Shown piece after piece: positions 21,114 to 58,316 of a stretch of 64,000 nt of DNA (position 1 is its first letter; every line of letters begins with the position of its first letter). The stretch comes from Phaeodactylibacter xiamenensis. GTDB lineage: Bacteria; Bacteroidota; Bacteroidia; Chitinophagales; Saprospiraceae. The stretch spans positions 124,001 to 188,000 of the forward strand of contig NZ_JPOS01000079.1 of assembly GCF_000759025.1 (NCBI RefSeq). The letters run 5' to 3'. Under the pieces are notes generated by a model, which did no database searches, was not told the DNA's origin, and worked only from the letters and a program-made list of their open reading frames with translations. The translations under genes and the position numbers were made by a program.

Positions 21114-21137
21114 CTGCCATTTTGAAAAAATAAAGCC

Positions 21138-23537
21138 ATGAAGAATATAGTCATGAAACTTAATATCCTACTTTTATTTGGGCTGGTGCTGGTCCTTAGC
21201 AATTGCACAAGAGACCTCTCCGAAGAGGCAAAACCTGCTACTTTCCCAGCTAACGGGGATGTATACATTGACGGGTTTAGCCCGGGCCTGGAATACCTGC
21301 CCTTCGGTGACTCTTACTTTGAAGCGTTTTCCGTAGACGAGCAGACCGTATACGAAGGCGAATCCGCCATGCGATTTGACGTGCCTAATGTCGGGGACCC
21401 GGACGGAGCTTATGCCGGCGCTATATTCCCGGACTACGGCGGGCGTGACCTTTCCGGTTTCGATGCCCTCACGTTCTGGGCGAAAGCCAGTCAGGCCGCT
21501 AACATCAATGAAATTGGTTTTGGACAAGACTTTGCAGAAAATAAGTATGAGGTCACCCTCCTTAACCTGGAGCTGACCACCAACTGGCGTCAGTACACCA
21601 TCGCCATTCCCGATCCTTCCAAGCTGACGGAGGTCGATGGCTTGTTTTGGTACTCGGAAGGCCCGGAAGACGGCGTAGGCTATTCCTTCTGGATAGATGA
21701 GTTGAAATTCGAAAAGACCGGGAAAGTAGCCCAGCTCCGGCCCGCTATTTTTGAAGGCACAGAAGCTGCGGTTCAGACTTTTGTAGGGGTATCCACTAGT
21801 GTTGCCGGCCTGCAGCAAACCGTCAATTTGGGCAATGGCAGAGACCAAACCATTGCGGTCGCACCCAGTTACTTTGAATTCACGTCTTCTGACCCCGGCG
21901 TAGCCACGGTTGATGCTGCAGGCAATATCCTGGGCATAAGCCCGGGCGAAGCAGTCATCACCGCCACTTTAAATGGAGTGGAAGCAGCGGGTTCTGCCAC
22001 CGTGACCGTCACAGGCGAGTTTAACGGCGCTCCTACGCCTACTCAGGACCCCGCTGATGTCATTTCCATCTTTTCGGATGCGTATACCAATGAACCGGTA
22101 GACTATTATAACGGTTACTGGGCTCCCTTCCAGACCACTCAGGGGCAAGATGATATCAATATTGCCGGTGATAATATTATTTTCTACCGAGAGCTGAATT
22201 TCGTGGGCATACAGTTTCTGGACGATGCCCCAACGATCGATGCCTCCTCCATGACCCATCTCCACATCGACATTCAGCCCAGAGAGCCGGTGGAGCCAGG
22301 TGACTATCTGAACATACAGGTTGCTGACGTTGGCCCGGACAATACATTCGGTACCGGTGATGATTCTTCCGGCGAAATTTCAATTCCTGGTTCCAGTCTG
22401 ACCGAGGGGGAATGGTATAGCCTTGATGTGCCGTTTTCGGATTTGGGAGGGCTGACTGGCCGGTCTAATTTAGCGCAGGTCATCTTCGTTTCTGACGCCA
22501 CTATATCCAGTATCTACGTGGATAATGTCTACTTTTATAATGACGGAGGATCAGGTGGCCCTACTGGTCCAACCATGGCTGCTCCGGCACCAACAGCGGG
22601 TGCTGCGGATGTGATTTCCATCTTTAGCGATGCCTATACGAATATCAATTCCAACCTGAACCCGGACTGGGGGCAGGGCACTCAGGTTTCCCAGGTGAGC
22701 ATTGAGGGCAACAACACCCTACTCTACACCGGGCTGAATTTCCAGGGGCTGGAATTAGAGAGCAGCACCGATGTAAGCGAAATGGAATTCCTGCACATTG
22801 ATTACTGGACGGAAAATTCTTCTGCTCTGAACGCTTTCCTGATCAGCACCGGGCCTACTGAAACGGCGAGTGCATTGCCCGTGCCTACATCCGGATGGGC
22901 CAGCGTGGACATTCCGCTGGGTGATTTCTCACCTGTGGACCTGGCAGATATTATTCAAATGAAGTTTGATGGCAACGGCGATATCTATCTGGATAATATC
23001 TACTTCTACAAATCCTCAGGTGGCGGAGGAGATGAGCCGACTACGGCTGCACCAACGCCAACCCAGGATGCCGCAAATGTGATTTCCATGTTTAGCAATG
23101 CCTACACCAACGTAGGGGTGGATACCTGGAGGACAGACTGGTCGTCCGCGACACTGGAAGATGTTCAGGTGGCGGGCAACGATGTGAAGTTGTACACGGC
23201 CCTCGACTTTGTCGGCATTGAAACCACCGGTGGAAATCTAATTGATGCTTCTTCCATGACGCATTTCCATGTAGATGTATGGACACCGAACATGACCACC
23301 TTCCGGATCAAACTGGTGGACTTTGGTGCCGATGGTGGCTTTGATGGAGGAGACGACAGCGAGTTTGAGTTAATCTTCGACAATCTCGCTCAGGGGCAAT
23401 GGGTGTCCTATGATATCCCACTTTCGGACTTTGAGGGTCTGACCAGTACAACAAATCTGGCGCAGCTCATCTTCTCCGGACTACCCGCTGGCGGTGGAAC
23501 TCTTTATGTCGACAATGTCTATTACTATCAGCAGTAG
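21138..23537 (+). CDS. Lipoprotein with carbohydrate-binding-like repeats and a Big-like domain; putative surface glycan-binding protein
   Basis: Lipobox LVLVLSNC; Big-like VAVAPSYFEFTSSDPGVATVDAAGNILGISPGEAVITATLNG; three repeats starting (A/P)PTPTQD/AADVIS(I/M)FS(D/N)AYTN and ending IYVDNVYFY. Confidence 0.8.
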   Translation: MKNIVMKLNILLLFGLVLVLSNCTRDLSEEAKPATFPANGDVYIDGFSPGLEYLPFGDSYFEAFSVDEQTVYEGESAMRFDVPNVGDPDGAYAGAIFPDYGGRDLSGFDALTFWAKASQAANINEIGFGQDFAENKYEVTLLNLELTTNWRQYTIAIPDPSKLTEVDGLFWYSEGPEDGVGYSFWIDELKFEKTGKVAQLRPAIFEGTEAAVQTFVGVSTSVAGLQQTVNLGNGRDQTIAVAPSYFEFTSSDPGVATVDAAGNILGISPGEAVITATLNGVEAAGSATVTVTGEFNGAPTPTQDPADVISIFSDAYTNEPVDYYNGYWAPFQTTQGQDDINIAGDNIIFYRELNFVGIQFLDDAPTIDASSMTHLHIDIQPREPVEPGDYLNIQVADVGPDNTFGTGDDSSGEISIPGSSLTEGEWYSLDVPFSDLGGLTGRSNLAQVIFVSDATISSIYVDNVYFYNDGGSGGPTGPTMAAPAPTAGAADVISIFSDAYTNINSNLNPDWGQGTQVSQVSIEGNNTLLYTGLNFQGLELESSTDVSEMEFLHIDYWTENSSALNAFLISTGPTETASALPVPTSGWASVDIPLGDFSPVDLADIIQMKFDGNGDIYLDNIYFYKSSGGGGDEPTTAAPTPTQDAANVISMFSNAYTNVGVDTWRTDWSSATLEDVQVAGNDVKLYTALDFVGIETTGGNLIDASSMTHFHVDVWTPNMTTFRIKLVDFGADGGFDGGDDSEFELIFDNLAQGQWVSYDIPLSDFEGLTSTTNLAQLIFSGLPAGGGTLYVDNVYYYQQ

Positions 23538-23567: not shown

Positions 23568-24425
23568 ATGAAAATGCAGACACCAATTTATAAAACCCGC
23601 AGGCCTGCTATCAGCATCCTTTTTGCATTGGCCCTGGGGCTTTGGTTCACGGCTTGTGAAAACAGCGAAACTCAAACGGTGGTCACCTTCACCGACCTGG
23701 CCTTCGAGGACAATTTTGATACAGACGGCCCGGTTGACGAATCCTCCTGGAATTATGAGCTTGGAAATGGCGTAAACAACGGCCTGCCTGTAGGCTGGGG
23801 CAACAATGAGTTGCAGTACTACACCGACCGCCCGGAAAACATCAAAGTCGAAGGGGGGATGCTGCACATTACTGCGCTCCGGGAAAGCTTTGAGGGCGCT
23901 GCTTTTACCTCCGCTCGTATTACGACTAAAGGTAAAGTGGAACAACGCTACGGCCGCATCGAAGCCCGCATGCAGTTGCCCTGGGGGCAGGGGCTGTGGC
24001 CGGCATTCTGGATGCTGGGCAGCAATATCGATGAAGTCGGCTGGCCGCAGTGTGGCGAAATCGATATCATGGAATACCGCGGACAGGACCCCTCAACCCT
24101 AATTGGCAGCGTACATGGCCCAGGCTACTCCGCCGGAGATGCGGTAAGCAAAGAGTACGTCCTGCCTCAGGACCGGTTTGATACAGGCTTCCATATTTTT
24201 GGTATTGAGTGGGGTCCGGAGTACATCAATTACTATGTGGATGATGTGCTGTACAATCAGATCACCCCCGAGGATGTAGATGGCGAATGGGTCTTTGACC
24301 AGCCGTTTTACATCATCCTGAACCTTGCAGTGGGCGGCAACTTTGTCGGAGCAGTAGGCCCTGATACCGTTTTTCCGCAAACCCTGCTTGTGGACTATGT
24401 CCGGGTCTACAACGGGCCTAACTAA
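23568..24425 (+). CDS. GH16 family beta-glucanase (laminarinase-like), lipoprotein
   Basis: Lipobox-like FTAC; WNYELGNG...GWGNNELQYYTDRPENIKVEGGMLHITA; catalytic motif GEIDIMEYRG. Confidence 0.93.
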   Translation: MKMQTPIYKTRRPAISILFALALGLWFTACENSETQTVVTFTDLAFEDNFDTDGPVDESSWNYELGNGVNNGLPVGWGNNELQYYTDRPENIKVEGGMLHITALRESFEGAAFTSARITTKGKVEQRYGRIEARMQLPWGQGLWPAFWMLGSNIDEVGWPQCGEIDIMEYRGQDPSTLIGSVHGPGYSAGDAVSKEYVLPQDRFDTGFHIFGIEWGPEYINYYVDDVLYNQITPEDVDGEWVFDQPFYIILNLAVGGNFVGAVGPDTVFPQTLLVDYVRVYNGPN

Positions 24426-24455: not shown

Positions 24456-27400
24456 GTGTCAACTTTTATGGGTGACCACCAAACCGCTGCTTCCGTTGAT
24501 ATCCAACGGGTGAACATCAATGGCGAACCTTACTTCAAAATTTCTAACAGCGATGCCATGCGGCCCTTCTTCATGAGCATCGTCAGCGACTCCAATCACT
24601 GGCTTTTTATTGCCAGCAACGGAGGGCTGACGGCAGGCCGGAAAAACTCAGAATACGCGCTGTTCCCTTACTACACCGATGACAAAATCACGGAATCGGT
24701 CGAAGTAACGGGCAGTAAAGCGCTGTTCCGGGTGGACCAAAATGGCAATTCGGTGCTTTGGGAGCCGTTCTCTGTTCGGCAGGAAGGGCAGTACAAGCTG
24801 AGCCGCAACCTCTACAAAAATGTATACGGCAATAAAGTACGCTTTGAGGAGGTGAATCACGATCTGGGCCTCACATTCCAGTATGAATGGAGCTCCAGTG
24901 ACCGCTTTGGCTTTGTACGCCGCTCCGCCCTGATCAACCACAACGAAGCAGCGGTTTCGGTCCACCTGCTGGATGGCATTCAGAATATCCTGCCCTACGG
25001 GGTCAACAGTGAGCTGCAAATGCGCTCCAGCAACCTCGTAGATGCCTACAAAAAGAGCGAGTTGGAAAAAGATGCCGGGCTGGGTATCTATGCCCTCAGC
25101 GCCATCATCGTGGACCGGGCGGAGCCCAGCGAGGCCCTCAAAGCTAATATCGCCTGGTCTTGTGGGCTGGAGTCGCCTACCTACCTGCTGACTTCCCGCC
25201 AACTTGATGCCTTCCGGAAGGGAAAGCCGCTTCAGGAGGAAGTCGATATGCGGGCGGAGAAAGGCGCCTATTTCGTTAGTAAGGAGATGGAGCTGCCCGC
25301 CAAAGGCACCCAGGAGTGGTTGATCATGGCCGATGTCAACAAAAATCATGCGGACATTGCCCGTATTATGCATGAAATTCAGACCAGCCCGAACCTGGCC
25401 ACTGAGATTGAGGAGGACATCCGCAAAGGTACGGACCGGCTTATCGCATTGGATGCTCAGGCCGATGGGCTGCAAATGACGGCGGATGAATTCCGGGATG
25501 CCCGCCACTTCTCCAACGTGCTGTTCAACATCATGCGTGGCGGTATCTTCGATCATCACTACCAGATTGAGAAAGCAGACCTGAGCCTCTACCTGGCGAA
25601 AGCCAACAGGACTGTCTTCAAGGCGGCTCAGCCGATGCTTTCTGAACTGCCGGATACCTTTCCACTCAGCGAGCTGCGCAAGGCCGCTCAAGCTACAGGC
25701 AATACCCATCTACTCCGCCTTTGCCTGGAGTACATGCCCCTGAAGTTCAGCCGCCGTCACGGTGACCCCAGCCGCCCCTGGAACAAATTCTCCATCAATA
25801 CCCGCAGTGAGGTAGATGGCTCGAAGATACTGGACTATGAGGGCAACTGGCGGGACATCTTCCAAAACTGGGAAGCCCTGGCGCATTCTTACCCGCGCTT
25901 CGTGGAGAGCATGGTGCACAAATTCCTCAATGCCACCACCTTCGATGGTTACAATCCCTACCGGGTGACCAAGGATGGCTTCGACTGGGAAACCATCGAG
26001 CCCGATGATGCCTGGTCCTACATCGGTTACTGGGGCGACCATCAGATCATCTACCTGCTGAAGCTGCTGGAATTCTGGGAAAAGCAGTCGCCGGGCGACC
26101 TGCAGCACTACTTTAGCGAAGACCTCTTCGTTTACGCGAATGTGCCCTACAAAATCAAGCCCTTCGAGAAAATCTTGGAAGACTCCAAGGATACCATAGA
26201 GTTTGATCATGAAGCAGATGAGTCAATCCGGCAGAAAAGAGATCAGATTGGGGCCGATGGGGCACTGCTGGCGGATCAGAGCGGGCAAATCTATCAGGTG
26301 AACTTCATTGAAAAAATGTTAGCGGCCCTGCTTGCCAAAATGTCCAACTTCATTCCCGAAGGAGGCATTTGGATGAACACCCAGCGCCCGGAGTGGAATG
26401 ATGCCAATAATGCATTAGTAGGTAACGGGGTGTCAATGGTGACGCTTTACTACATGCGTCGTTTCCTACAGTTTTTTGATGACCTGTTCGCCCAGTCAGA
26501 AGCCCAGTCAGTCAGTGTATCGGCTGAGTTGCTGGACTGCTTCGAAGGGATTGCCAAAGCGCTGGACTCGAATGAAAAACTGTTATCCGGCACCTTCAGC
26601 GATAAAGACCGGATGACCGTGCTACAGGGGCTTGGTCAGGCTGCGAGCCGTTACCGGGCTAAGATATACGATCACGGTTTCTCCGGGCAAAAGCACGAGC
26701 TGAAGCTGGAAGACCTCAAAACGTTTGTTCGCCTCAGCATACGTTACCTGGACCACTCTGTAAAGGCAAATGAGCGAAAGGATGGGCTTTATCATGCTTA
26801 CAACCTCATGGCCGTGGAAGAAGATGGTGGCGTGTCCATCGAATACCTTGATGAAATGCTCGAAGGGCAGGTGGCGGTGCTCAGTGCCGGTTCCTTGTCC
26901 TCAGCGGAGGCGCTTCGGGTGTTGGATGCACTGAAAAACAGTGCCCTCTTCCGACCGGATCAGTACAGCTATATTTTGTACCCCAATAAGGACCTTGGGC
27001 GTTTTATGGCCAAAAACAACATTCCCGCCAAAATGGTGGGCGAGTCCAAACTTCTCCAAAAGCTGGTCGCGGATGGCAATGCCCAAATCCTCTATCAGGA
27101 TGTAAAAGGCGCTTACCACTTCAATGGCAATTTCAAAAACGCCAACGATCTAAAAGTGGCGCTGGATGCCCTGGCGGATACTCAGTACGCTGCATTGGCA
27201 GAAGCCGAGCGCAAGTCTGTGCTTCAGACCTTCGAAAAAGTCTTTAACCACAAAGCCTTCACCGGTCGGTCGGGCACCTTCTTCGGGTACGAAGGGTTGG
27301 GCTCCATCTACTGGCATATGGTTTCCAAGCTGCAGCTGGCCGTACAGGAATGCTGCCTGAAGGCCATCCGTGAGGGGGCAAGCCAGGAAGTGGTTGGCCG

Positions 27401-27911
27401 TTTGCTGGAGCATTACTACGAAATTAATGAGGGCATAGGCGTACACAAATCGCCGGACCTCTACGGGGCTTTTCCTACGGACCCGTACTCGCATACACCG
27501 GCGGGTAAAGGTGCACAGCAGCCGGGTATGACCGGGCAGGTGAAGGAAGATATCCTGAGCCGCTTTGGTGAACTGGGTGTCTTTTTTGAAAAGGGGCAAT
27601 TGCATTTCGACCCCTGTCTGCTCCGTAAGGAAGAGTTCCTGCAGCGGCCACGCACTTTTACCTTCCGCGATGTGGCAGGAGAGGAGCAACAGGCAGAGCT
27701 GGGCGAAGGTACGCTGGCTTTCACCATCTGTCAGGTGCCGGTGCTCTATCAATTGAGAGATGCAGCCGGGATTATGGTGGTCGGCAGTGATGGTACTGTT
27801 CATGCCTCAGAGGAAACCGCTTTAAGCCCTGATTTGAGTAAGGAAGTGTTCGAACGAAGCGGTAAGGTTGCCCGGATTGTCGTGTCGCTGAACCCTAAAG
27901 ATTTGAAATAG
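24456..27911 (+). CDS. GH94/GH149/GH161-like phosphorylase, putative beta-1,3-glucan phosphorylase
   Basis: 1151 aa without signal peptide; MRPFFMSIVSDSNHWLFIASNGGLTAGRKNSEYALFPYYTDDKI and late YGAFPTDPYSHTPAGKGAQQPGMTGQVKEDI resemble this superfamily; genomic context. Confidence 0.7.
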   Translation: MSTFMGDHQTAASVDIQRVNINGEPYFKISNSDAMRPFFMSIVSDSNHWLFIASNGGLTAGRKNSEYALFPYYTDDKITESVEVTGSKALFRVDQNGNSVLWEPFSVRQEGQYKLSRNLYKNVYGNKVRFEEVNHDLGLTFQYEWSSSDRFGFVRRSALINHNEAAVSVHLLDGIQNILPYGVNSELQMRSSNLVDAYKKSELEKDAGLGIYALSAIIVDRAEPSEALKANIAWSCGLESPTYLLTSRQLDAFRKGKPLQEEVDMRAEKGAYFVSKEMELPAKGTQEWLIMADVNKNHADIARIMHEIQTSPNLATEIEEDIRKGTDRLIALDAQADGLQMTADEFRDARHFSNVLFNIMRGGIFDHHYQIEKADLSLYLAKANRTVFKAAQPMLSELPDTFPLSELRKAAQATGNTHLLRLCLEYMPLKFSRRHGDPSRPWNKFSINTRSEVDGSKILDYEGNWRDIFQNWEALAHSYPRFVESMVHKFLNATTFDGYNPYRVTKDGFDWETIEPDDAWSYIGYWGDHQIIYLLKLLEFWEKQSPGDLQHYFSEDLFVYANVPYKIKPFEKILEDSKDTIEFDHEADESIRQKRDQIGADGALLADQSGQIYQVNFIEKMLAALLAKMSNFIPEGGIWMNTQRPEWNDANNALVGNGVSMVTLYYMRRFLQFFDDLFAQSEAQSVSVSAELLDCFEGIAKALDSNEKLLSGTFSDKDRMTVLQGLGQAASRYRAKIYDHGFSGQKHELKLEDLKTFVRLSIRYLDHSVKANERKDGLYHAYNLMAVEEDGGVSIEYLDEMLEGQVAVLSAGSLSSAEALRVLDALKNSALFRPDQYSYILYPNKDLGRFMAKNNIPAKMVGESKLLQKLVADGNAQILYQDVKGAYHFNGNFKNANDLKVALDALADTQYAALAEAERKSVLQTFEKVFNHKAFTGRSGTFFGYEGLGSIYWHMVSKLQLAVQECCLKAIREGASQEVVGRLLEHYYEINEGIGVHKSPDLYGAFPTDPYSHTPAGKGAQQPGMTGQVKEDILSRFGELGVFFEKGQLHFDPCLLRKEEFLQRPRTFTFRDVAGEEQQAELGEGTLAFTICQVPVLYQLRDAAGIMVVGSDGTVHASEETALSPDLSKEVFERSGKVARIVVSLNPKDLK

Positions 27912-27913
27912 CT

Positions 27914-29233
27914 ATGCGGAAATCAAAAAACCATCCCTTGAGTACTTTGATGCTGTCCATACTGCTGGGTGTAGCTGTGGTTATTTTCCTGGCCATTGGC
28001 TGCAGCCCATCTGCAGAAAAGGCAACGGTAACGCCAACTGAAAAACCAAATGAAGTGACCGCTGCTGACATCCTTGGCGACCCGGCTTACCGGGCTATTT
28101 CCTACGGAGGCTACCGTGCCAACAGCCGGGAGGGACAGCCTACCGTCGCTCAGCTGAAGGAGGACATGCTTTTGCTACAGGCTATGGGCATCAAGTTACT
28201 AAGGACCTATAACACCCATCTGGCGCAAGCCTCCAATCTGCTGGTCGCCATCCGCGAGCTGAAAAGCGAAGATCCTGGCTTCGAGATGTACGTTATGCTG
28301 GGCGCCTGGATCAACTGCAAAGGTGCTTTTACCGCTAATCCGGACCACAGTGCCGAAGATGCAGAAGCCAACGCTGCCGAAATCGGGCGTGCAGTGGAAA
28401 TGGCGAAAGCCTACCCTGATATCGTCAAAGTTATTGCGGTGGGCAACGAAGCTATGGTGAAATGGGCCGCCAGCTATTTTGTACAGCCGGGGGTGATCCT
28501 CAAATGGGTCAACCACCTGAAGGGGCTGAAAGCTAATGGCGAACTGCCCGAAAGCCTCTGGATTACCAGTTCAGACAATTTTGCGTCCTGGGGCGGTGGC
28601 GGTGCAGAGTATCATGTAGAGGACCTGGAGCAGTTGCTGCGGGCAGTAGACTTTGTATCCCTGCACACTTACCCTATGCACGACACCCACTACAATCCGG
28701 ACTTTTGGGGGGTAACGGAAGCCGAAGCTGAGCTGCCCAAAGCCGAACAGATTGAAGCCGCAATGGAGCGTGCTTTGGAATACGCGCAGCAGCAATACGC
28801 ACAAACTGCAGCCTACATCAGCGGGCTGGGCATTGAAAAGCCCATCCATATTGGGGAGACGGGCTGGGCGACCGCTTCCAACAGCTTCTACGGACCAGGC
28901 GGCTCGAAAGCGACCGATGAGTATAAGTCTGCCATCTACCACAAGCGCATGCGGGAGTGGACCGACGAAGATGGCATCAGCTGCTTTTACTTTGAGGCGT
29001 TTGATGAAAACTGGAAAGACGCTGGAAACCCGGGCGGCTCCGAGAACCACTTTGGGCTCTTCACGATCGATGGCAAAGCCAAGTATGCCCTTTGGGACCT
29101 GGTGGATGCCGGGGTGTTTAAAGGTTTAGGGCGCGGCGGCCAGCCTGTAGCCAAAACTATGGATGGGGACGAAGCGGCACTTCTGGAATCCGTGGAGGTA
29201 CCTCCTTTGATGGAAGAAGCGCCTGACCATTAG
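27914..29233 (+). CDS. GH17 family glucanase-like lipoprotein
   Basis: Lipobox LAIGC; YRAISYGGYRANSREGQPT; VIAVGNEAMVKW and IHIGETGWAT catalytic motifs. Confidence 0.85.
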   Translation: MRKSKNHPLSTLMLSILLGVAVVIFLAIGCSPSAEKATVTPTEKPNEVTAADILGDPAYRAISYGGYRANSREGQPTVAQLKEDMLLLQAMGIKLLRTYNTHLAQASNLLVAIRELKSEDPGFEMYVMLGAWINCKGAFTANPDHSAEDAEANAAEIGRAVEMAKAYPDIVKVIAVGNEAMVKWAASYFVQPGVILKWVNHLKGLKANGELPESLWITSSDNFASWGGGGAEYHVEDLEQLLRAVDFVSLHTYPMHDTHYNPDFWGVTEAEAELPKAEQIEAAMERALEYAQQQYAQTAAYISGLGIEKPIHIGETGWATASNSFYGPGGSKATDEYKSAIYHKRMREWTDEDGISCFYFEAFDENWKDAGNPGGSENHFGLFTIDGKAKYALWDLVDAGVFKGLGRGGQPVAKTMDGDEAALLESVEVPPLMEEAPDH

Positions 29234-29263: not shown

Positions 29264-30751
29264 ATGACAAAATCTATTCACATATCCTCCTGTCTGATGG
29301 TCTTGATGATGCTTGCCGCCTGTCAATCCAGGGAACCACTACCGGTGGAAGTCTACGAAACCTCTGCCGGTGGCCATCAGCTTACGCCCTTGTCGGATTT
29401 CGCCCAGGCTGAAAATCCCATCGTGGTAAAGCTGCTGCCTGAGGAAACCTATCAGACAATCACGGGCTTTGGCGGCTCTTTTACCGAAGCATCCGCTTAC
29501 CTGCTCAATCAGCTCAGCGCTGGGAACCGCAGCAAAATTATTAATGCTTACTTCGGAACGGAAGGCGCAAAGTACTCCCTCACCCGTACGCACATGAACT
29601 CCTGCGACTTCTCCCTGGGGCATTATTCCTATGCCCCGGTGGAAGGCGATACCGCCCTGCAGCATTTTACCATAAAAGAAGACCGCGAAGACATCATCCC
29701 CATGATCAAGGATGCAATGGCTGTCTCGGAAGAGGGCTTCAAAATCATCTCCTCGCCCTGGACAGCCCCGCCCTGGATGAAAGACAACAACGACTGGATG
29801 GGGGGCAAGCTGCAGCCCCAATACTATGATACATGGGCGCTGTTTTTCTCCAAATACCTGGACGCTTATCAGGCAGAGGGCATTGATATCTGGGCATTTA
29901 CGGTGGAGAACGAGCCACTGGGCAATGATAGTAACTGGGAGAGCATGCACTTCAGCCCGGAGGAGATGACGGCCTTTGTGCAAAACCACCTCGGCCCCCG
30001 CTTAGAGGCGGACGGGCATAGTGCAAAAATCCTTGGCTACGATCAGAACCGGGAACACCTCAAAGAATGGGTGGATGACATGTACCAAAATGAAGCCACT
30101 TCCAAATATTTTGACGGTACAGCAATTCACTGGTACGCCAGTACCTATGAGGTTTTTCCGGAGGAATTGCAGTATGCTCACAAAAAAGCACCCGGGAAGC
30201 ACCTCATTCAGACCGAAGCTTGCGTGGATGCGGAAGTGCCCAAATGGAAAAACGACGACTGGTACTGGTCTCAGGAAGCCACCGACTGGGGCTGGGACTG
30301 GGCACCGGAAGACCAAAAGCACCTGCACCCGAAGTACGTGCCGGTCTACCGTTATGCCCGCGATATCATTGGCTGCCTGAACAACTGGGTAGATGGCTGG
30401 GTGGACTGGAATATGGTGCTCAACCGGCAGGGCGGCCCCAACTGGTTCAAGAACTGGTGTGTGGCCCCGGTTATCGTTGACCCCGAACAAGACGAGGTCT
30501 ACTTTACGCCCATTTACCATACCATGGCGCATTTTAGCAAATTTATTCGCCCCGGCGCTACCCGCATCGGATTTGAAAACCCGGATGATGAAATGATGGT
30601 GACAGCCGCCAGGAACCCGGATGGATCTGTCGCTGTCGTCGTTTTCAATCCCACCGAACAAGAGAAAATTCTGGCCATAGAACTGAGCGGGCAGTCCGCC
30701 CAACTATCCATCAGCAAGCAAGCGATTCAGACCATAGTCATCAAACCATAA
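29264..30751 (+). CDS. GH30 family (glucosylceramidase / beta-1,6-glucanase-like) lipoprotein
   Basis: Lipobox MLAAC; YQTITGFGGSFTEASAYLLNQLS; SSPWTAPPWMKDN; FTVENEPL; HLIQTEACVD. Confidence 0.92.
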   Translation: MTKSIHISSCLMVLMMLAACQSREPLPVEVYETSAGGHQLTPLSDFAQAENPIVVKLLPEETYQTITGFGGSFTEASAYLLNQLSAGNRSKIINAYFGTEGAKYSLTRTHMNSCDFSLGHYSYAPVEGDTALQHFTIKEDREDIIPMIKDAMAVSEEGFKIISSPWTAPPWMKDNNDWMGGKLQPQYYDTWALFFSKYLDAYQAEGIDIWAFTVENEPLGNDSNWESMHFSPEEMTAFVQNHLGPRLEADGHSAKILGYDQNREHLKEWVDDMYQNEATSKYFDGTAIHWYASTYEVFPEELQYAHKKAPGKHLIQTEACVDAEVPKWKNDDWYWSQEATDWGWDWAPEDQKHLHPKYVPVYRYARDIIGCLNNWVDGWVDWNMVLNRQGGPNWFKNWCVAPVIVDPEQDEVYFTPIYHTMAHFSKFIRPGATRIGFENPDDEMMVTAARNPDGSVAVVVFNPTEQEKILAIELSGQSAQLSISKQAIQTIVIKP

Positions 30752-30763
30752 ATAAAACCAGCG

Positions 30764-33163
30764 ATGAGTACTACAGCTAAACATACAGTGCCCTTTGGGC
30801 AGAAGGTCGCCTTCGGGCTTGGCATGCTCGCCAATCAAATGTTCCCGGCCGTACTGGGGATTTTCATGGTGGTCCTGGTACAAAACCTGGGCTTTCCGGG
30901 TTGGATGTGGGGGGTAATTTATTTCTTTCCCAGGATTTTTGATTCCTTCACGGACCCGATTATGGGCTTCATTTCGGACAACACGAAATCCAAATGGGGG
31001 CGGCGCAGGCAGTATGTGATGGCCGGTGCGATTATCATGGGGGTCGCGTTTGTAGCCATGTGGCAGCTCTACAAAACAGACCCGGCAACCGGGGAATTGG
31101 TGTCCCTCAACTACAACTTCACCTACTTCATGATCTGGTCTTTTGTTTTCTACCTGGGACTGACCATTTTCAGTGTGCCCTACGTAGCTATGGGGTATGA
31201 GATGAGTGACGATTTCCATGAGCGCACCAACATTATGGCTACTGCGCAGTGGATTGGGCAGTGGGCCTGGGTAATTGCGCCCTGGTTTTGGGTCATCATG
31301 TATGATAATGGCCCGGATGGGTGGTTCCCGGACGCAGAAACAGCTACCCGAACCCTTGCCCTTTGGGTGGGCATCATTTTGATGTTCGTTGCCATGATGC
31401 CGGCCATCTTCATTAAAAGTGAATCCACTCTGGAGAAGGATTATTCTCCGATGACACTCAAAAATATTGGCGGGAGTTTCAATGAGATCATTCTCGGTTT
31501 TAAGGAAGCGCTGAAGATCAAGCCGTTCCGGAAGCTTTGTATTTCCACCTTCTTCATTTTCAATGCGTTCAATACCGTAGCTACCTTTACTTTCTTCATC
31601 ATCGTATACCACTTGTTCAACGGGGATGCGGATGCTGCGAATGCGGGGTTCTGGCCCACACTTTTCGGTAGCCTGGGCGCGATTTCCACCACCTTTATTG
31701 TTATTCCGATTGTGGCCTGGCTATCGCGCAAAATAGGTAAGAAGCAAGCTTTTATTTTGTCGCAGGGTATTTCAATTATCGGGTATGTGATGCTGTGGTT
31801 CCTTTTGGTGCCGGGCAAGCCTTACCTGTTTATTTTTGCGCTGCCCTTCTTTTCCTTTGGTATCGGTAGCCTGTTCACCCTGATGATGTCCATGACTTCG
31901 GATGTGATTGACCTGGACGAGTTGAATACTGGCAAGCGGCGGGAAGGTATTTTCGGTGCCATTTACTGGTGGATGGTGAAGTTTGGTTTTGCCATTGCCG
32001 GTGGTTTGAGTGGGGTGATTTTGTCCATCGTAGGATTTCAGGAAGGCATTCCGGGTACAGATCAGCCTGAGGCCATTACCGGGCTGCGGATATTTTTCTC
32101 CGGACTGCCTATTGCAGGAACCCTGATTGCGATGTGGGTCATGCGCGATTACGATGTAACGGAGGAAAAAGCACTGGAAGTCCGTGCGGCGATTGACCGT
32201 AAAAAAATGGCGAAAGGAAGCTCCTCCGCTTATATGCCCGGCAAGTTGCTGGCCCTTAAAGAGGGCTTGCTTCTCAATGGGGTAGTCGGATTAGACTTTG
32301 CCGGAAAATCCACTGGTGAAATCCGCGCCCTCTTTACGGAAAAGCTCAATAGCCACCTGCACGGGCTATGCTTCAGCCCTTATGTGGAAGGTCAGGCTGC
32401 CGGTGACATCCTGTCAAAAGAACAGATTCGGCGCCGTATGGAAATCATTATGCCGCATACCGAATGGATCCGCTCATTCTCTTGTACAGAAGGCAATGAA
32501 CTGATCCCCCGAATTGCCCATGAGAAAGGCCTGAAGACAATGGTGGGGGCCTGGATCAGCGCAGACAAAGCACGGAATGAAGCCGAGATCAACGCCCTGG
32601 TAAGGCTGGCCAAAGAAGGCCTGGTGGATATAGCAGCTGTTGGTAATGAAGTGCTGCTGCGCAATGAGCTTTCGGAGCAGGAAATCATTGGTTACATTGA
32701 GCGGGTGAAGGCGCAGCTTCCAGAAGGCATACCGGTGGGCTATGTGGATGCCTACTATCAGTTCCTGGAGCGCCCTGAACTGGTTAATGCCTGTGATATT
32801 CTCCCGATCAACTGCTACCCATTCTGGGAAGGAGCAGACAGTAGCCACGCGTTGTTGTTCCTGCAGCAGATGTACACATTGGCGGCAGAAGCCGGCAGAG
32901 GCAAAAAAGTGATTGTTGCCGAAACCGGATGGCCGAGTGCGGGGCAGAGCGTGGAAGCGGCACAGCCTTCTGCTGAAAACGCTATGAAGTACTTCATCAA
33001 TGCCCAGGACTGGGCAAAAGCCAACGGTATTGAAATGTTTTACTTCTCCTCCTTCGATGAGTCCTGGAAAGTGGTCCACGAAGGCGAGGTGGGTACCCGC
33101 TGGGGGCTTTGGGACAAGCACGAACAGCCCAAGTTTGCTTCACAAAACGTAAAAACCAACTAA
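30764..33163 (+). CDS. MFS (GPH-type) sugar transporter fused to a C-terminal GH17 domain
   Basis: N-terminal ~475 aa polytopic (FDSFTDPIMGFISDNTKSKWGRRRQYV); C-terminal ~310 aa (from about 32234) is GH17 with AAVGNEVLLRN and VIVAETGWPSAGQ; one uninterrupted frame. Confidence 0.88.
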   Translation: MSTTAKHTVPFGQKVAFGLGMLANQMFPAVLGIFMVVLVQNLGFPGWMWGVIYFFPRIFDSFTDPIMGFISDNTKSKWGRRRQYVMAGAIIMGVAFVAMWQLYKTDPATGELVSLNYNFTYFMIWSFVFYLGLTIFSVPYVAMGYEMSDDFHERTNIMATAQWIGQWAWVIAPWFWVIMYDNGPDGWFPDAETATRTLALWVGIILMFVAMMPAIFIKSESTLEKDYSPMTLKNIGGSFNEIILGFKEALKIKPFRKLCISTFFIFNAFNTVATFTFFIIVYHLFNGDADAANAGFWPTLFGSLGAISTTFIVIPIVAWLSRKIGKKQAFILSQGISIIGYVMLWFLLVPGKPYLFIFALPFFSFGIGSLFTLMMSMTSDVIDLDELNTGKRREGIFGAIYWWMVKFGFAIAGGLSGVILSIVGFQEGIPGTDQPEAITGLRIFFSGLPIAGTLIAMWVMRDYDVTEEKALEVRAAIDRKKMAKGSSSAYMPGKLLALKEGLLLNGVVGLDFAGKSTGEIRALFTEKLNSHLHGLCFSPYVEGQAAGDILSKEQIRRRMEIIMPHTEWIRSFSCTEGNELIPRIAHEKGLKTMVGAWISADKARNEAEINALVRLAKEGLVDIAAVGNEVLLRNELSEQEIIGYIERVKAQLPEGIPVGYVDAYYQFLERPELVNACDILPINCYPFWEGADSSHALLFLQQMYTLAAEAGRGKKVIVAETGWPSAGQSVEAAQPSAENAMKYFINAQDWAKANGIEMFYFSSFDESWKVVHEGEVGTRWGLWDKHEQPKFASQNVKTN

Positions 33164-33167
33164 CAAT

Positions 33168-34055
33168 ATGTCACTACGGGTAGAACGACTGGATGGTCTG
33201 AAAGGCTTCGATTATTCCGGCAAAGACGCGGATGATTTCCGGCAGCTTTTTCAAAATGTGCTGGGCAGTGGCCTGCATGGCTTATGCTACAGTGCCTACG
33301 ATGAAGGTCAAAAACCGGGCGCTATTCTGACCAAAGCGCAGATCAGAAGGCGTATGGGGATCATTGCGCCCTACATCAAATGGGTGCGGAGCTTCTCCTG
33401 CGTGGAGGGCAATGAACTGGTGGCTGAGGTAGCCCGCGAGATGGGCATCAAAACCCTGGTCGGTGCCTGGCTGGGCGATGACAAAGACCTGAATGAGCAG
33501 GAAATAGAGGGGCTGATCCGTCAGGCAAAAGCCGGCTACGTGGATATTGCTGCTGTAGGCAATGAGGTGATGTACCGGGGCGACCTGACCGAAGGAGAAC
33601 TGCTGGAGTACATCGCGCGGGTACGGGAAGCCCTGCCCGGGGATATCCCGGTAGGCTATGTGGATGCTTATTATGAGTTCAGCGCCCGGCCACAGATTAC
33701 CGCTGCCTGTGATGTCATTCTGGCCAACTGCTACCCTTACTGGGAGGGTTGCCACATTGACTATAGCCTGATGCATGCTAAGCAAATGTACTACCAAGCT
33801 TTGCACGCCGGGCAGGGCAAAAAGGTGATCATTACAGAAACCGGCTGGCCTAGTCAGGGCACCGCACTCAATGATGCAGAGCCTGCTCACCACAATGCGC
33901 TGCGCTACTTCCTCAATATTCAGCAGTGGGCCCGGCAGGACAATATCGAGGTCTTCTACTTCTCCTCTTTCGATGAATCCTGGAAGGTAGGCGCAGAAGG
34001 GGATGTTGGGGCCTACTGGGGCCTTTGGGACAAGCATGAACAGCTGAAATTTTAA
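33168..34055 (+). CDS. GH17 family protein, no signal peptide (paralog of the fused GH17 domain)
   Basis: GFDYSGKDADDFRQLFQNVLGSGLHGLCYSAYDEGQ; AAVGNEVMYRG; VIITETGWPSQG. Confidence 0.88.
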   Translation: MSLRVERLDGLKGFDYSGKDADDFRQLFQNVLGSGLHGLCYSAYDEGQKPGAILTKAQIRRRMGIIAPYIKWVRSFSCVEGNELVAEVAREMGIKTLVGAWLGDDKDLNEQEIEGLIRQAKAGYVDIAAVGNEVMYRGDLTEGELLEYIARVREALPGDIPVGYVDAYYEFSARPQITAACDVILANCYPYWEGCHIDYSLMHAKQMYYQALHAGQGKKVIITETGWPSQGTALNDAEPAHHNALRYFLNIQQWARQDNIEVFYFSSFDESWKVGAEGDVGAYWGLWDKHEQLKF

Positions 34056-34061
34056 AAATTA

Positions 34062-34994
34062 ATGGAGCACAACAACCATTTGCCTTTTCCGTACGGCCGG
34101 GCGATTTGCTACTCTGGTTTTCGGGAAGGGCAACACCCTGGTGGTGAATACCCAACCTATGAGCAGGTCCGGGAAGACTTACTGATATTGCAAGGGCACT
34201 GGAAGTACCTGCGGCTTTACGATTGCGACCCGCATGGAGAGACCGTATTGCAGGTCATCCAACAGGAAAAGCTGGACTTCAAAGTCATGCAGGGCGCCTA
34301 CATCGAAGCCGAAATGAACAACTACGGCTGCCCCTGGGGCGGCGGGGTGTATGCGGAGGAACAGCTGGAGGCTAACAAAGCCAAAAACGACGCGCAGATT
34401 AACAAGCTCATCGAATGGGCCAATGCCTACCCCGACATCATCTGCTGCACCTCAGCCGGGAATGAAGCTTGTGTGGACTGGACCGACCATTACGTTCCGG
34501 TGGGGCGGGTTATTGCTTTTGTTCGCCGCCTCAAGGCTGCTACCCAGCAGCCCGTCACTTTTTGTGAAAACTATGTACCCTGGATGCACAAGCTGCGCCC
34601 GCTGGTTCAGGAGGTCGACTTCATCTCTATCCATACTTATCCGGTATGGGAGTATAAGCACATCCACGAATCCCTGGAATATACCAAAGAAAACTACTAC
34701 GGTGTTGCAGACCTTTACCCGGATACGCCGGTCGTTATCACCGAAGCCGGCTGGACGACCCGTTCCAACGGTCAGGGCATCGACCCCGGCCACGTCAATG
34801 AAGGCCTGCAAAAGACCTACTACGACGACCTTATGGACTGGACGGATACCGAAGAAATCCTCACCTTCGTCTTCGAAGCCTTCGACGAGCCCTGGAAAGG
34901 CTCACCAGACCCCAATGAGCCGGAAAAGCATTGGGGGCTGTTCCGGGTGGACCGGTCGCCTAAATCGGTGGTAGCCGGCTTGGTGAAAAAATAG
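34062..34994 (+). CDS. GH17 family protein, no signal peptide
   Basis: FPYGRAICYSGFREGQHPGGEYPTYEQVREDLLIL; CTSAGNEACVDW; VVITEAGWTTRSNGQG; EAFDEPWKGSPDPNEPEKHWGLFRVDR. Confidence 0.88.
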   Translation: MEHNNHLPFPYGRAICYSGFREGQHPGGEYPTYEQVREDLLILQGHWKYLRLYDCDPHGETVLQVIQQEKLDFKVMQGAYIEAEMNNYGCPWGGGVYAEEQLEANKAKNDAQINKLIEWANAYPDIICCTSAGNEACVDWTDHYVPVGRVIAFVRRLKAATQQPVTFCENYVPWMHKLRPLVQEVDFISIHTYPVWEYKHIHESLEYTKENYYGVADLYPDTPVVITEAGWTTRSNGQGIDPGHVNEGLQKTYYDDLMDWTDTEEILTFVFEAFDEPWKGSPDPNEPEKHWGLFRVDRSPKSVVAGLVKK

Positions 34995-35226: not shown

Positions 35227-36246
35227 ATGCACAATCTAAACCTTGGTTTGGGAGGTTCCCTCCTGTACGTACCTATCATTTTGTTCTTTCTGGCGGGCTA
35301 CCAAAACACCTTGCATGCCCAGGCACCAGATGGCTTCACCTATCAGGCGGTCATTCGGGACGCGGAGGGCGCTCTGCTAGCAAATAGCCCGGTCGGGCTC
35401 CGGTTCAACATCCTTGCAGCGTGCAACGAGAGTAATATAGAGTATCAGGAAATCCATACCACGACTACCGATGAAAACGGCGTAGCTACTGTGGTCATAG
35501 GGGAAGGCGCTCAAACTGCCGGTGACTTCAGCGCCATAGACTGGTCTGCCGCCGATTTTTGCCTGAAAGAAGAAATTGACCCGGCGGGTTCAAGCGGCAA
35601 TTATACGCTATCGGCTACCACCCCGCTTAAATCGGTCCCTTTTTCCTACTTTTCATCCACCTCGGCACAGGCTATGGTAGCGGAGGAAGCCAACACCCTT
35701 GAGGCTGACTACTTAAGCCGGCTGCTGCCTATTGGCATGGTTACCCCCTTTGCCGGCTCTTCTGCCCCCGATGGCTGGCTGCTATGCGACGGGAGCGCAT
35801 TGCAGCAAAGCGAGTACCCTGATTTATACGCCGTCATCGGTAACAGTTATGGTGGTTCAGGCAATACCTTCAATCTGCCCGATTTGCGGGGAAGGGCACC
35901 TTTCGGCTACCACGCTCAGCAGGATACCTTCAGTACGCTCGGCAGCACCGGTGGAACAGTGGAACATACCCTTACCGTGGAGGAAATGCCTGAGCATATG
36001 CATACCGGGGAGACGGATAATGATGGTGAACACGAACACAGAGGAAATAATGTAGCACAGGTAGAGGACGGGACTGGCTCGTTTGTGACCGATGATCACG
36101 AGAACAACAACCCCGGATCAATAATACATAGTCAGAATAGTGCTCACCAGCATAATTTTACCACGGATCCGACCGGCGGCAACGAGCCCCACCCCAATAT
36201 GCCCCCCTTCCAGGTGCTGAATTACATAATCAAGGCCAGATATTAA
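35227..36246 (+). CDS. Secreted phage-tail-collar domain protein
   Basis: LPIGMVTPFAGSSAPDGWLLCDGSALQQSEYPDLYAVIGNSYGGSGNTFNLPDLRGRAPFGYH; N-terminal signal-like segment. Confidence 0.85.
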   Translation: MHNLNLGLGGSLLYVPIILFFLAGYQNTLHAQAPDGFTYQAVIRDAEGALLANSPVGLRFNILAACNESNIEYQEIHTTTTDENGVATVVIGEGAQTAGDFSAIDWSAADFCLKEEIDPAGSSGNYTLSATTPLKSVPFSYFSSTSAQAMVAEEANTLEADYLSRLLPIGMVTPFAGSSAPDGWLLCDGSALQQSEYPDLYAVIGNSYGGSGNTFNLPDLRGRAPFGYHAQQDTFSTLGSTGGTVEHTLTVEEMPEHMHTGETDNDGEHEHRGNNVAQVEDGTGSFVTDDHENNNPGSIIHSQNSAHQHNFTTDPTGGNEPHPNMPPFQVLNYIIKARY

Positions 36247-36355
36247 ATAGCATCCTGCAGAGTTCAGGGCAGGGGGGCGTCCCTTTTTGCAAAGCAAGGC
36301 CAGGGAAACGACCTCGTTGAAAACGAATTCTGAATCTCCTAACTCTACCCCGAAT

Positions 36356-39300
36356 ATGCACACGATTAAATACCTCATGGCAGCCGCAGTTGCCCTGTTT
36401 CTGTTCCATCCCTTTGCTGCTGCACAGCGTACGCTTTCCTCTGGCGGCAGCGGAGGTACGAACCCCGCTGTCGGTTCTTTTCGCTCTGGTATTGGCGGGC
36501 ACCAACCTGCCGGCACCTTAGCAGGGAATAACGGCAGCGCCTTCCGGGGTCTTCCGGTGCCCGCTGAAATCTCTAACGCGCCCAAGGCGGCTGTAGGGCT
36601 GAGCGCAGCCCAAAACGAAAGCGATGCCTATGTTGAAGTAAGGTGGGTACTGCCGAATACTTGTTTCCTTGACCCCGGTCAGCCCGGCCAGCCTGCTCCG
36701 GAAGGGGTCTATGTGGAAGTTATAGCGATGGGCGACGAATCCGTCGTTGATCAGGGAGCGGAAGTGATTTACGCAGAATTGATTCAACAGGATGTGGTGA
36801 ATGTTGTCCGGAATAGTATGCGGCATTTCGTAGGGCCGGGGCATACCGTCGTGTACAAATTAAATACCTATTTAGTAGGGCCAGGCCATGAAATTACGGC
36901 CTGCAGCAACCTGGAAGCCACAGGGCAGACTTTACCCTATCAGGCCATTGAAGCCCTGCAAGCCACCGATGAGGAAAGCCTGCACGAAATAAAACTGAGC
37001 TGGGAGAGCCATTCTGACCTGCCGAATGAGTTCATCATTCACCGTACAGACGAGGCAGGCCGGGAAGTGGTGGCAGGGACACTCCGAGATTTTGCTGCTC
37101 AGGAAACCGTATTCACATTTACGGACAGCTTTGTGCCACAGGACAGCAACAGCATACAAAATGGAGAAATCTATACTTACCGCATCACGGCCTATAGCGA
37201 GCGCTTCGATAAAACCTACAACAATCCGGAGGCGGTTGACGATGGTGAAACAGTGCCCATAGCGTTCAATGCACTAAGCCAACCGCAGGACACCCTCATC
37301 GCTTTGTCGTGGGCAGATATTCGGGACTACGCCACCCGCATTGCGCTTTTTCGCAATGATCAAGCTGTAATCGAACAGGATTTATCCGATAATCCCGCCA
37401 ATGAATACACCGATTTCTTTCCCGTTTTCGGCCAGTTCAATACCTATCGCCTGCAAGCCTATCAGGAAGACGAGCTATTGGTGGAAGTAGAAGCCAGAGA
37501 TACCCTGCCGCCCTTCGGTTATATCGCTGGTGCGGTACGAACGCCGCTCGGAGTGGGCCTGAAAGGCGTGGAAATTACAGCCACGGCTACTATCCGGGGG
37601 CAGGCTTATACCTATTCAGACACCACTGACGATCAGGGTTTATACCAGCTTGATGCCCTGTACTTCCGGGATTCCGCCACCTTCACCGTGCGCGCGGTGG
37701 CTGACGGGCAGATGATTGGCGAAGAGCCGGTCGGAATGAGTCGGGCAAAATACCGGTATGAAAAAGTCAATTTCGGCTTTAGCACAGAATTGCCCGAACT
37801 GGCTGACGACAGCCTGCGCCTGATCAACCCGGGGCTGCAAGCCGGCCTCGATGAACTTGCCCAGGCAGGCGAATGCGCTTCCAGCCGGGACACGGTCTAC
37901 TTCCAATTGTACCGGGAGGGGCAACTGGTCGACTTCGGCCGCAAGCTCGACGCACTGTCAGATGATACGGTCTACCCATTGAAGGACCGCACGGGGCAGG
38001 GCCGGTACAATTACCTGTATGAAGTTCGGGCCTACCTTTACCGCAACGATTCTGCTTTAGTCGTACGCTACAATCTGGGGAATAACACCTTCCCGGAAGT
38101 GACGCCGGTGGCCGGGCTGCAGGGCGGTATAGAGCGGGGCGTTGTCCGGCTGGACTGGTCCAACCCTTCCGCCAACATCACCGGTTTCCGGGTATACCGG
38201 GACATGGAGCTGGTTGAGGAGCTGCCATCTACCGCGACCAGCTTCCTGGATTTTTACGGCTTCCCGGGCGAAACCCATCAGTACGAAGTGACTGCTTACC
38301 GCAAAACCGGCAGCCGGCTTTCTGAATCGGAACCGGAGGACGTGGAGATGGATTTCCCTCCCTTACCAGTCCCACAAAGCCTTGGAGTTGAAGATAAACC
38401 CGGATATGCCTATATCGATTGGAATGACCAAACCGATCCCCCCCTGGAGGATCAGTTTTTTACAGGGTATAAAGTTTTTAGAAACGATTACGAGATTGGC
38501 ACCATTCTGAAGGGAGATACTACCCGGTTTACTGACCTGACCGTGCTGCCTTTCAAATCTGTATCCTATCGCATTGCAGCCTTTTTGCAACGGCCGGATA
38601 CAACAATCCTTGGAGAAGCGGTAACCTCTGGCCCCATTGGAGGGACAAGCGATGTATTTACCTCAGATGCCTATGATTTTAATTATTCACCCTCAACTCG
38701 AAAGGCAATCCTCACCCTCAATCCTGACTTTTCCAGCAGCGATTTTACCAATGCAGATGGCTTCATTTTTCGTGTTAATTTGGAGTATCATGATACCATT
38801 CGGATTGGTGAGCCAGCGTCGGTTTACCATTTCAATGGCGAAGCGAATAACTTTACAGGAGTCGTCGTTAGAGTGCGGCCCTTTAAAGAACAGGCGGAAG
38901 GCATAGTTAGCGGGCCTTTAGATGAGTTAGTATTCAGTGGCGCTCTGCCGGTGGATAATGATGATCTCGAAGCCCCTTCCAATTTCCAGGCCTCCGAGCA
39001 CCTCGCTTCCCACGTTGTACTGACCTGGGACTACCCGGTTTTCAAACTGTCTGATTTTGTCATTTATAAGGATGGTGAGGTGGTGGATACCCTGCCCACT
39101 GTTGCGAGAGCCTTCTATGACCAGGAAGCCATACCTGGACAATCGACCTCTTACGCTATTCAGGCCATTTACCAGTCATCCGGGGCAATTTCTACTTCAG
39201 TAAAGGTTGGTGATCAGGGCAAGCGGTTGCATGGATACCGGGTCAAAGGAAGAATCCTGCCCGAAACGCTTCCCAGCCTCGCCCTGGACAGTACGCGGGT

Positions 39301-42300
39301 AGAGCTGATCAGTGACGGGCGGGTGCTGGCCCGGGGCTGGACCAACGATGCAGGGGCATTTGTTTTACCGGCGATTGCCCCCACTATGATGGGCAATGAT
39401 AATGAAGTACGAATCAGAACAGAAGGGCGCAGCCTCCACCTGGTGGCTGATGCCTTGCCTTTTGATAAAAACGAATTGGAGAGCGGGGATGTATTCCTCA
39501 CCTTCCGGGATCAGTTTCAAGCGGCCGCCTATCCGGACTTCCCGCAACCTAACCGGATTGCCAGAGTGATTAATGCGGTAGCGGAAGATGGCCCTCGCGG
39601 GGAAGCCGTCCTGTTAAGCTGGCAGGCTACCCCCGGGCGTTTGGATGGTTTTGAGGTATACCGCAATACCACGCTGCTGGCCCGGATGCCCAAACGGGGC
39701 AGTACCCTGTATCTCGCTGATTCTACCGGGGTTGGAGGGATTGACTACGATTATTCCATTACGCCATACGCTATTGTCGAAGGCCGGAAGCTCCTCGGAG
39801 CGAGTGTAGTCCTGCCCAAGGTTTTTCCACGCCTGGCAGCAGTAGACTACCTCACTGCTACACCTAATCTGACGGGGTTCAATACGATCTCATTACAGTG
39901 GAGCCACCCCACGGCAGAAGCCGACCTTTTCCGATTGATCCGCAATGGCGTGGTTATAGGAGAGCTCAGTGGCCATGCAGCTATGGAGTGGGTAGACAGT
40001 ACCGGTATCCCCGGGCAGCTATACAGCTACGAGCTGGAAGCGGTGCGCAGGGTCAATGGCAGCGAGCTGGGCCGCTCTCCTTTGCGCAGTGTGCAGGTCA
40101 GGTTTCCGGGAGTCGTTGCGCCCCATCTGGAAGCCGTGCCTGATCCGGATCGGAATGGCGTGCTGCTCAGCTGGTCTTACGAAGGCAGGCATGTTTCCGG
40201 TTTTCAGCTGTTTCGCAGCGGTGAGCTCATCGGTCAATTCGCACCGGACAGCCTCGAGGTGCTGGATCAGGGCGGATTTCCCGGGGCTTCCACGAGCTAC
40301 GAACTGGTAGCCTTGCTGGAACGCAACGGGCAGCTGTACCCATCATTGCCCGAAGAAGTGGAGGTGGTGTTTCCTGTACTGCACGAGGTGGATCAGGCCC
40401 AGCTTGAAGCGGATGAAAGCCTGGGGCTGGCCCGGCTGAAGCTGCCCTATGCCTACGAAGCGATTGATGCTGTGGAGTTGCAAATCAGGAGCCTGGACGC
40501 AGGTGGGACGCTTTATGAGGAAACGCTAAGTGTCAATTATGAGGAAATTGGCCATGATACCGTGACCGTTGAACTCCCGAATGGCTGGCCGGGGCGAGAA
40601 TTTGAAGTGAAGCTGCGGGCGCTTGCCACCCGGCAGGGCGTGGACTTTTTTTCCGAAGGTACAGTACGTTCCCTGGATTATTACCCTGATCCCCCCATGG
40701 GTACGGCGCTGGAGGCCAGTGACGATGAATTCGAAAACCGCGTGGAGCTCACCTGGCAGCTCCCCTTTGAGGCGAACGTTGACAAACAGCGAATTTTGCG
40801 GGGCTCAGATATTGTGGCGACCCTACCCGCCGGGCAGCGTACTTTTTCGGACGTTATAAACGGAGATTTCGGAGGGCCTTTTCTGTATACGGTATTATCC
40901 ATCCGGGAGGCGCATGGCCAAATCTTCCGGTCCGGCGAGATCAACAATGACCATGGCTCCTGTTTGCTTACCGGGGCGAATGAAAATCTGCTCACGGAGG
41001 TAACGGCTTCAGACGGCACCTTCAAATCGCGGACCCTCATCAACTGGTCGGCGGCTTCAACCGATACCCTGCAGGGGTACCGGGTATACCGCGACGATGA
41101 ACCACTGGCTACATTGAACCCCACCAACACCTTTTATAACGATACCGAAGGCGTGCCCGGACAGGAGTACGTATACCGGGTGGAAGCCATCGGAGACAGC
41201 GGAGAAGCAGCCCAATCCAAAGCGGACCGGGGCCACCGGCAGAGCGAAGGGCGCATTGCCGGTCGGGTGCAGACTGCCATTGGCGGAGCACCTGTGGCGG
41301 GGGCTGAGATTACTGCAGTTGGCATAATTGGCGGAGAGGAATATCGCTACGAAGCGGTATCCGGGCCGGATGGCAAGTATAGCATTGAAGGGGTTTTTTA
41401 TGGAGAAGAAACAGCGGCTTACACCGTCAGCGTTTCGTACCAAGACCATGAATTCATAAATAATAACAAAGAGGTGGAATTTACACCTCAAATCTGGTCT
41501 TTCAATAATATCACGTTTTTCGACAATACTGCCTACGTCGTCGAAGGAAGGGCACTGTACGCGGGTACAGACATCGCTATCCCTGGTGCAACGGTAATGC
41601 GGAAGTACCATTTTACACCCAATACTCAGGTTTCACCGGAACTTGAGCTCGAAGAAGTCATGACGGATAAAAATGGCCGGTATAGTTTCAATGTACAGCC
41701 GGACCTGGAAGGCTTACAACGAATTGAAATCCTAATCTCGGAAACTAGTCAGTTTTTGGATGGGTCAGATACGCTCCTGATCCGCCACGATTTTGAGGCA
41801 ACCACACAGGCAGAATTTGCAAACCTCAGCGCTTTACCAACGGTAACGGAACTCAATTTTGAGGACAGGATTACTTATGACTTCGACATCGCAGTTACCA
41901 CAGTCTGCGGTGGGCCTCCCACCGATTTCGGACGGTACGAGATAGAAGTCAACCGGCCGCAGGGTGGTTTTTTCCGTACCGCGCTCACGAATGCAAATGG
42001 CCAATTAACCTTATCCTTGCCGCCGGTTAATGGGCTCCAAATCAGTGTCCGAGAGGTTGAACCCAAAGTCGCCGGCAATTTGCTGGTCCGGGACTACCTG
42101 CGGCCCCGGCCTGCCACAGCCGATATCCTGGCCTTACACCAGCAGTACGACGCATCTGGAGGGGCGCTTAATTTGGACAGCCTTGCCCGTATAGAATTGG
42201 TTTATCACAAGCCGGCGGGGATACAGCTCCTGACGCCGTTCGGGACACTCGCCTGCGGAGACCCGGACCGGCCGCGAGTCATAATGCAGGGCGAAGAGTA

Positions 42301-58277: not shown

Positions 58278-58316
58278 AGCACACTGCCCTGCAGATGCTT
58301 CACTAGTTTGGAGGAA

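Follow-up and report, generated by a model that had tools for sequence, protein, structure and literature searches.

A GPH-type transporter fused to a GH17 domain in a predicted laminarin cluster of Phaeodactylibacter xiamenensis

Main

Bacteria that feed on laminarin, one of the main carbon stores of the sea, repeatedly carry a fusion of importer and enzyme. Such a fusion is encoded at 30764–33163 (+) of the stretch of Phaeodactylibacter xiamenensis DNA analysed here (the window; 64,000 nt, 124–188 kb of its contig), directly before a gene for a related, free-standing GH17 enzyme. The locus raises the question of why one GH17 domain should be tethered to a transporter and the other left free, and what the tethered domain does to incoming sugars.

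Results

One gene encodes a transporter and a complete GH17 domain

The fusion gene is a single intact reading frame that runs from ATG to stop with no internal stops and encodes 799 amino acids. Residues 1–460 (30764–32143, +) form a GPH/MelB-like MFS domain with 12 helices, residues 461–515 (32144–32308, +) a predicted cytoplasmic helix (467–484) and a linker of low confidence (AlphaFold2 pLDDT < 50 at 484–489 and 501–503), and residues 516–799 (32309–33160, +) a GH17 domain, here called type F. Pfam assigned MFS_2 to residues 17–467 (E = 5.5e-67; PF13347, 226.6 bits against a cut-off of 27) and Glyco_hydro_17 to residues 700–791 (E = 4.6e-14), and the narrower profile TIGR00792 scored 171.7 bits, under its cut-off of 231. 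In phmmer searches of the PDB, the N-terminal part matched MelB (4M64, E = 3.4e-9) and the C-terminal part the GH17 enzyme RmBgt17A (4WTP, E = 7.8e-32). In an AlphaFold2 model (mean pLDDT 82.5, pTM 0.60) for which 44 fused sequences were used, 12 transmembrane helices are followed by helix 467–484, the poorly ordered linker and the barrel of the GH17 domain; the best Foldseek match of the transporter was MelB (TMt 0.83), and the barrel matched RmBgt17A (4WTR/4WTP, TMt 0.86/0.85), while the mutual placement of the two domains is of low confidence, given the pTM and the low-pLDDT linker. The acid/base Glu629 (VGNEV; codon 32648–32650, +) aligns with Glu133 of MlGH17B and Glu99 of RmBgt17A; neither it nor the nucleophile Glu720 (ETGWP; codon 32921–32923, +) varies in any of 100 fused GH17 domains. 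The profile match, the barrel fold and the two catalytic residues place the tail in GH17, and we confirm the proposal of the initial annotation that a GPH-type transporter continues in frame into a complete GH17 domain within one protein.

The fusion is authentic and widespread

We sampled 199 genomes of the same family and 395 genomes across the phylum and scanned GTDB contigs. Full-length fusions occurred in about 20 of the 199 family genomes, the closest being 82% identical and aligned over residues 4–795, and full-length homologues came from many independent assemblies. Further fusions were found in the phylum-wide set, and nearly all of the best 80 GTDB loci were fused, although the ranking puts full-length matches at the top and so skews that list towards fused forms; these loci belong to Saprospiraceae, Flavobacteriaceae, Cyclobacteriaceae and others, and to Burkholderiales MAGs (Rubrivivax, Rhodoferax and related genera). 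Because about 100 distinct homologues, Bacteroidota-wide and in Burkholderiales MAGs, carry the same fusion, a frameshift, an assembly or sequencing error and chance are ruled out, and the prospect, raised at the outset, that homologues are always encoded separately falls away. A plasmid search gave no DNA match and, by protein, matches to the transporter part only.

The initial annotation also took such fusions to be rare, which does not hold: they are common in Bacteroidota laminarin clusters, are present in Burkholderiales MAGs and have been published (PMC6246565, PMC10108472). The architecture has been known since 2018, when FbGH17B (FORMB_24740) of Formosa was described in the available text of Unfried et al. 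2018 (PMC6246565) as a single gene whose product joins an MFS transporter to a glucose-releasing GH17 domain (exo-activity), of a kind common among marine Flavobacteriia. The available text of Sidhu et al. 2023 (PMC10108472) places at least one GH17–MFS fusion in most variant-1 laminarin PULs and includes PULs of SAR92 and other Gammaproteobacteria. The fusion in the window, likewise a single reading frame with MFS before GH17, is a further case with added evolutionary detail.

The fusion lies in a glucan-degrading cluster

Seven genes on the same strand form the cluster: GH16 (23568–24425, +; Pfam), a GH149 beta-1,3-glucan phosphorylase (24456–27911, +; NF058639, 1807.5 bits against a cut-off of 1150), GH17 (27914–29233, +; Pfam) located where the gene order of PMC13188888 has the periplasmic laminarinase GH17A, GH30 (29264–30751, +; Pfam), the fusion, a stand-alone MlGH17B-like GH17 of type S (33168–34055, +) that begins 4 bases past the fusion stop, and a stand-alone GH17 of type C (34062–34994, +) whose Pfam score of 26.8 bits is just under the 28.2-bit cut-off. 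The order GH17A, GH30, MFS–GH17 (starts at 27914, 29264 and 30764) matches that published for FbGH17B-type fusions. The type S protein is 57% identical to the fused domain, in keeping with the paralogy first proposed. Judged by eye, the GH16, GH17A-position and GH30 (SCLMVLMMLAAC) proteins have lipoprotein-like signals and the GH149, S and C proteins no signal peptide, a pattern suggesting that cutting and debranching take place outside the inner membrane and that processing then follows inside.

The 64,000-nt window contains no TonB plug domain, so the cluster lacks the SusC/SusD mark of a PUL; on the contig, plug domains come closest near 66 kb and 257 kb, and laminarin must enter via a receptor encoded elsewhere. 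SusCD genes at 17967–23537 were considered and ruled out, that interval encoding one GH2-like and one Big_2 protein. A candidate sensor for the cluster is a regulator-propeller/Y_Y_Y protein encoded divergently from it (14855–17749, −). Downstream, a protein that looks secreted and has a PF07484 (phage tail collar) domain (35227–36246) separates the cluster from two adjacent giant reading frames (36287–47851 and 47870–57577; 3854 and 3235 aa) with the look of secreted repeat proteins. A relic at 58308–58745, about 24 kb beyond the intact GH17 genes in the downstream direction, joins a type S piece (like 33646–33985, 88% DNA identity) to a type C piece (like 34879–34963, 93% DNA identity); it is a duplicate that is truncated and has an internal deletion.

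Tethered and free GH17 domains form two blocks

A tree of 270 GH17 domains, comprising fused F (100), stand-alone S (126 and one fused exception, L050) and the third gene, C, set C apart and resolved F and S as two blocks within the rest. A careful 60-row tree needed the minimum number of F/S changes, with L050 nested in S; the F/S root is uncertain because the outgroup is far, and on far-outgroup rooting a small F group adjoins S. Neither of two genome samples, nor 20 further regions chosen within them for GH17 or MFS matches, yielded an unfused F-type GH17. Stand-alone domains in the added regions were S or C. The exceptions are two distant relatives, L194 (257 bits for F, 240 for S) and L202 (153 for F, 141 for S), both far under typical members. 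An S-type domain was fused once among the domains sampled (L050/L159, genome G239), by separate origin or tail replacement.

The gene after the fusion is S in 86 of 86 Bacteroidota loci with room downstream. All ten fusion loci without a downstream S are from Burkholderiales, and seven of them carry S upstream of the fusion. In these seven MAG loci (L112, L120, L124, L132, L135, L140 and L143) two stand-alone GH17 genes lie upstream, not downstream, and Leu stands where the S proteins would otherwise show the transglycosylation tyrosine.

Cleft residues favour hydrolysis by the tethered domain

Cleft residues were compared in the MlGH17B numbering of PMC11005184, with a one-residue offset past position 137. 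The S protein of the window equals MlGH17B, a stand-alone transglycosylase of Muricauda lutaonensis (PMC11005184, PMC13188888), at all but one (Ser275) of 22 cleft positions. Both catalytic Glu residues are invariant in F and in S, and nearly the whole cleft is conserved in F. Two positions separate the groups: Pro50 (subsite −3) is Pro in 126 of 126 S versus 8 of 100 F, and the Tyr136 position, a +1/+2 platform (PMC11005184), is Tyr in 108 of 126 S versus 3 of 100 F, counts that are not independent events because F and S represent one deep split. F domains carry Leu (61), Met (16), His (9), Gln (8), Phe (3) or Tyr (3) at the latter position; the six with Tyr or Phe count against the hydrolytic reading, and the fused S-type domain L050 keeps the tyrosine. 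New here is this group-wide pattern across F and S, the prior paper having noted Met in FbGH17B only (PMC11005184). That paper is inconsistent on FbGH17B, its conclusion stating that three residues are not conserved and its discussion that only the tyrosine differs; our F-group data side with the latter.

The leading alternative is a tethered transglycosylase that enlarges or branches incoming oligosaccharides so that none leave, for storage or trapping. The closest solved structure is that of a transferase, RmBgt17A; FbGH17B is 53% identical to MlGH17B; and the Trp and Glu also relevant to transfer are invariant in F. In the fusion, however, Trp688 and Glu689 are present but Leu632 (codon 32657–32659, +) occupies the transglycosylation site (Tyr136 of MlGH17B, Tyr102 of RmBgt17A), where 97 of 100 F domains lack the platform tyrosine, and Tyr102Ala is cited in the available text of PMC11005184 as abolishing transglycosylation in RmBgt17A. 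The adjoining S gene already has the full transferase signature, and glucose release is reported for FbGH17B in the available description. We consider a tethered transglycosylase unlikely, at roughly one chance in six. Loss of Tyr136 in 97 of 100 F domains, together with glucose release by FbGH17B, makes hydrolysis the most likely activity of F.

In GPH transporters such as LacS, an EIIA-like domain sits at the C-terminus. The GH17 domain occupies the same position, and relatives without the domain exist, so that it might be mainly a sugar-sensing or regulatory appendage with little catalytic flux. Against this stand the two catalytic Glu residues, invariant in 100 of 100 F domains, the conservation of nearly the whole cleft and the catalytic activity described for FbGH17B; we regard a regulatory role as improbable. 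A literature search turned up no LacS-like precedents.

The GH17 domain is predicted to be cytoplasmic

With helix boundaries taken from the AlphaFold2 model, loops on the side of the N and C termini hold 29 Lys and Arg residues versus 2 on the opposite side, and the same count in 44 homologues gave 23–32 versus 1–4, the bias being present in 44 of 44. This charge distribution makes it very likely that the GH17 domain lies on the cytoplasmic side of the membrane, and the cytoplasmic C-terminus presumed in the initial annotation is borne out by the predicted topology, in which 12 helices and both termini inside agree with GPH/MFS_2 membership. A periplasmic GH17 handing freshly cut sugars to the transporter would suit the coupling of hydrolysis and uptake described in the literature available, where the side is not fixed, but the even helix number, the absence of a thirteenth transmembrane helix from the model and the strong positive-inside bias in all 44 homologues make it highly improbable.

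Discussion

Evolutionary history of the tail

The MFS tree needs 14 changes between fused and unfused states. Most members of its first transporter type are fused; the unfused ones are scattered among them, and any GH17 gene seen beside these is of type S. The second type is nearly always unfused. Because the fused GH17 domains form one block and the neighbours of unfused type-1 transporters are S, repeated independent fusion is disfavoured as the main story, loss of the F tail fits the scatter better than repeated gain, and the scattered unfused type-1 transporters read as repeated tail loss. The S-type fusion and the attachment of F to a type-2 transporter in one genus (L056, L057) are exceptions to this history. 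The fusion in the window shares 82% identity with its counterparts in other genera of the family but 68% with that of the sole sampled genome of its own genus (G098), a pattern that suggests horizontal movement or loss of paralogues. Since some relatives of the fusion lack the GH17 domain and presumably still import, the tether seems useful but dispensable. We tentatively propose, at slightly less than even odds, that F, found only as a transporter tail and acting in hydrolysis at the exit, and soluble S, with its transglycosylase site, are an ancient division-of-labour pair in which tethering is functionally specific to F and has spread as a module, reaching another transporter type and Burkholderiales among others.

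Proposed mechanism

We favour, with a probability of about 0.7, the interpretation that the fusion is an inner-membrane GPH/MFS_2 importer of laminari-oligosaccharides with a cytoplasmic GH17 beta-1,3-glucanase tail. Surface and periplasmic lipoproteins (GH16, the GH17A-like enzyme and GH30) would cut and debranch laminarin, and the MFS domain, probably a cation symporter, would import the oligosaccharides. The tethered F domain would trim them hydrolytically near the exit, keeping inside substrate low and passing on short products; soluble S would probably rearrange or branch oligosaccharides, and GH149 would phosphorolyse linear chains. Seen directly here are the intact fusion, its conservation, the catalytic residues, the C-in charge pattern, the absence by eye of signal peptides and the gene cluster. 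The glucose-releasing exo-activity (from FbGH17B) and transglycosylation (from MlGH17B) are carried over from homologues, and we infer the transporter substrate as well as any kinetic link between transport and hydrolysis; our literature search found no test of such coupling. The original proposal that beta-glucan oligosaccharides are processed on entry remains the most likely role, given a GH17 domain predicted to be cytoplasmic, the GH149, GH30 and GH16 genes of the laminarin cluster and glucose release by FbGH17B. The F/S split and its residue signature make it testable why one GH17 is tethered and the other free, and whether uptake gains speed from hydrolysis at the exit.

Comparison with known systems

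FbGH17B of Formosa sp. Hel1_33_131 likewise combines, in the published description available, an N-terminal 12-helix MFS domain and a C-terminal GH17 in one gene placed behind those for GH17A and GH30 within a laminarin cluster. The locus in the window differs in having no TonB receptor nearby, and the fusion has Leu where FbGH17B, known to us by description rather than aligned sequence, has Met (Tyr136 site; PMC11005184). Variant-1 laminarin PULs, described for Bacteroidota and Gammaproteobacteria in the available text of PMC10108472, resemble the present cluster in combining GH149, GH30 and GH17 with the fusion; the fusion here is from Saprospiraceae (Phaeodactylibacter), and the Burkholderiales copies add a further lineage, none being reported in that text. 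MlGH17B has a cleft like that of the type S neighbour, including Tyr136, Trp191, Glu192 and Pro50; it is stand-alone and transglycosylating, whereas the fused domain lacks its tyrosine and proline. RmBgt17A of Rhizomucor miehei (PDB 4WTP) shares the GH17 fold (28–29% identity, TMt about 0.85) but is fungal, unfused and a transferase with Tyr102. MelB (PDB 4M64, 9OLD) shares the MFS fold and the GPH family with the transporter half; unlike the fusion, it carries no enzyme domain, and its substrate is a disaccharide.
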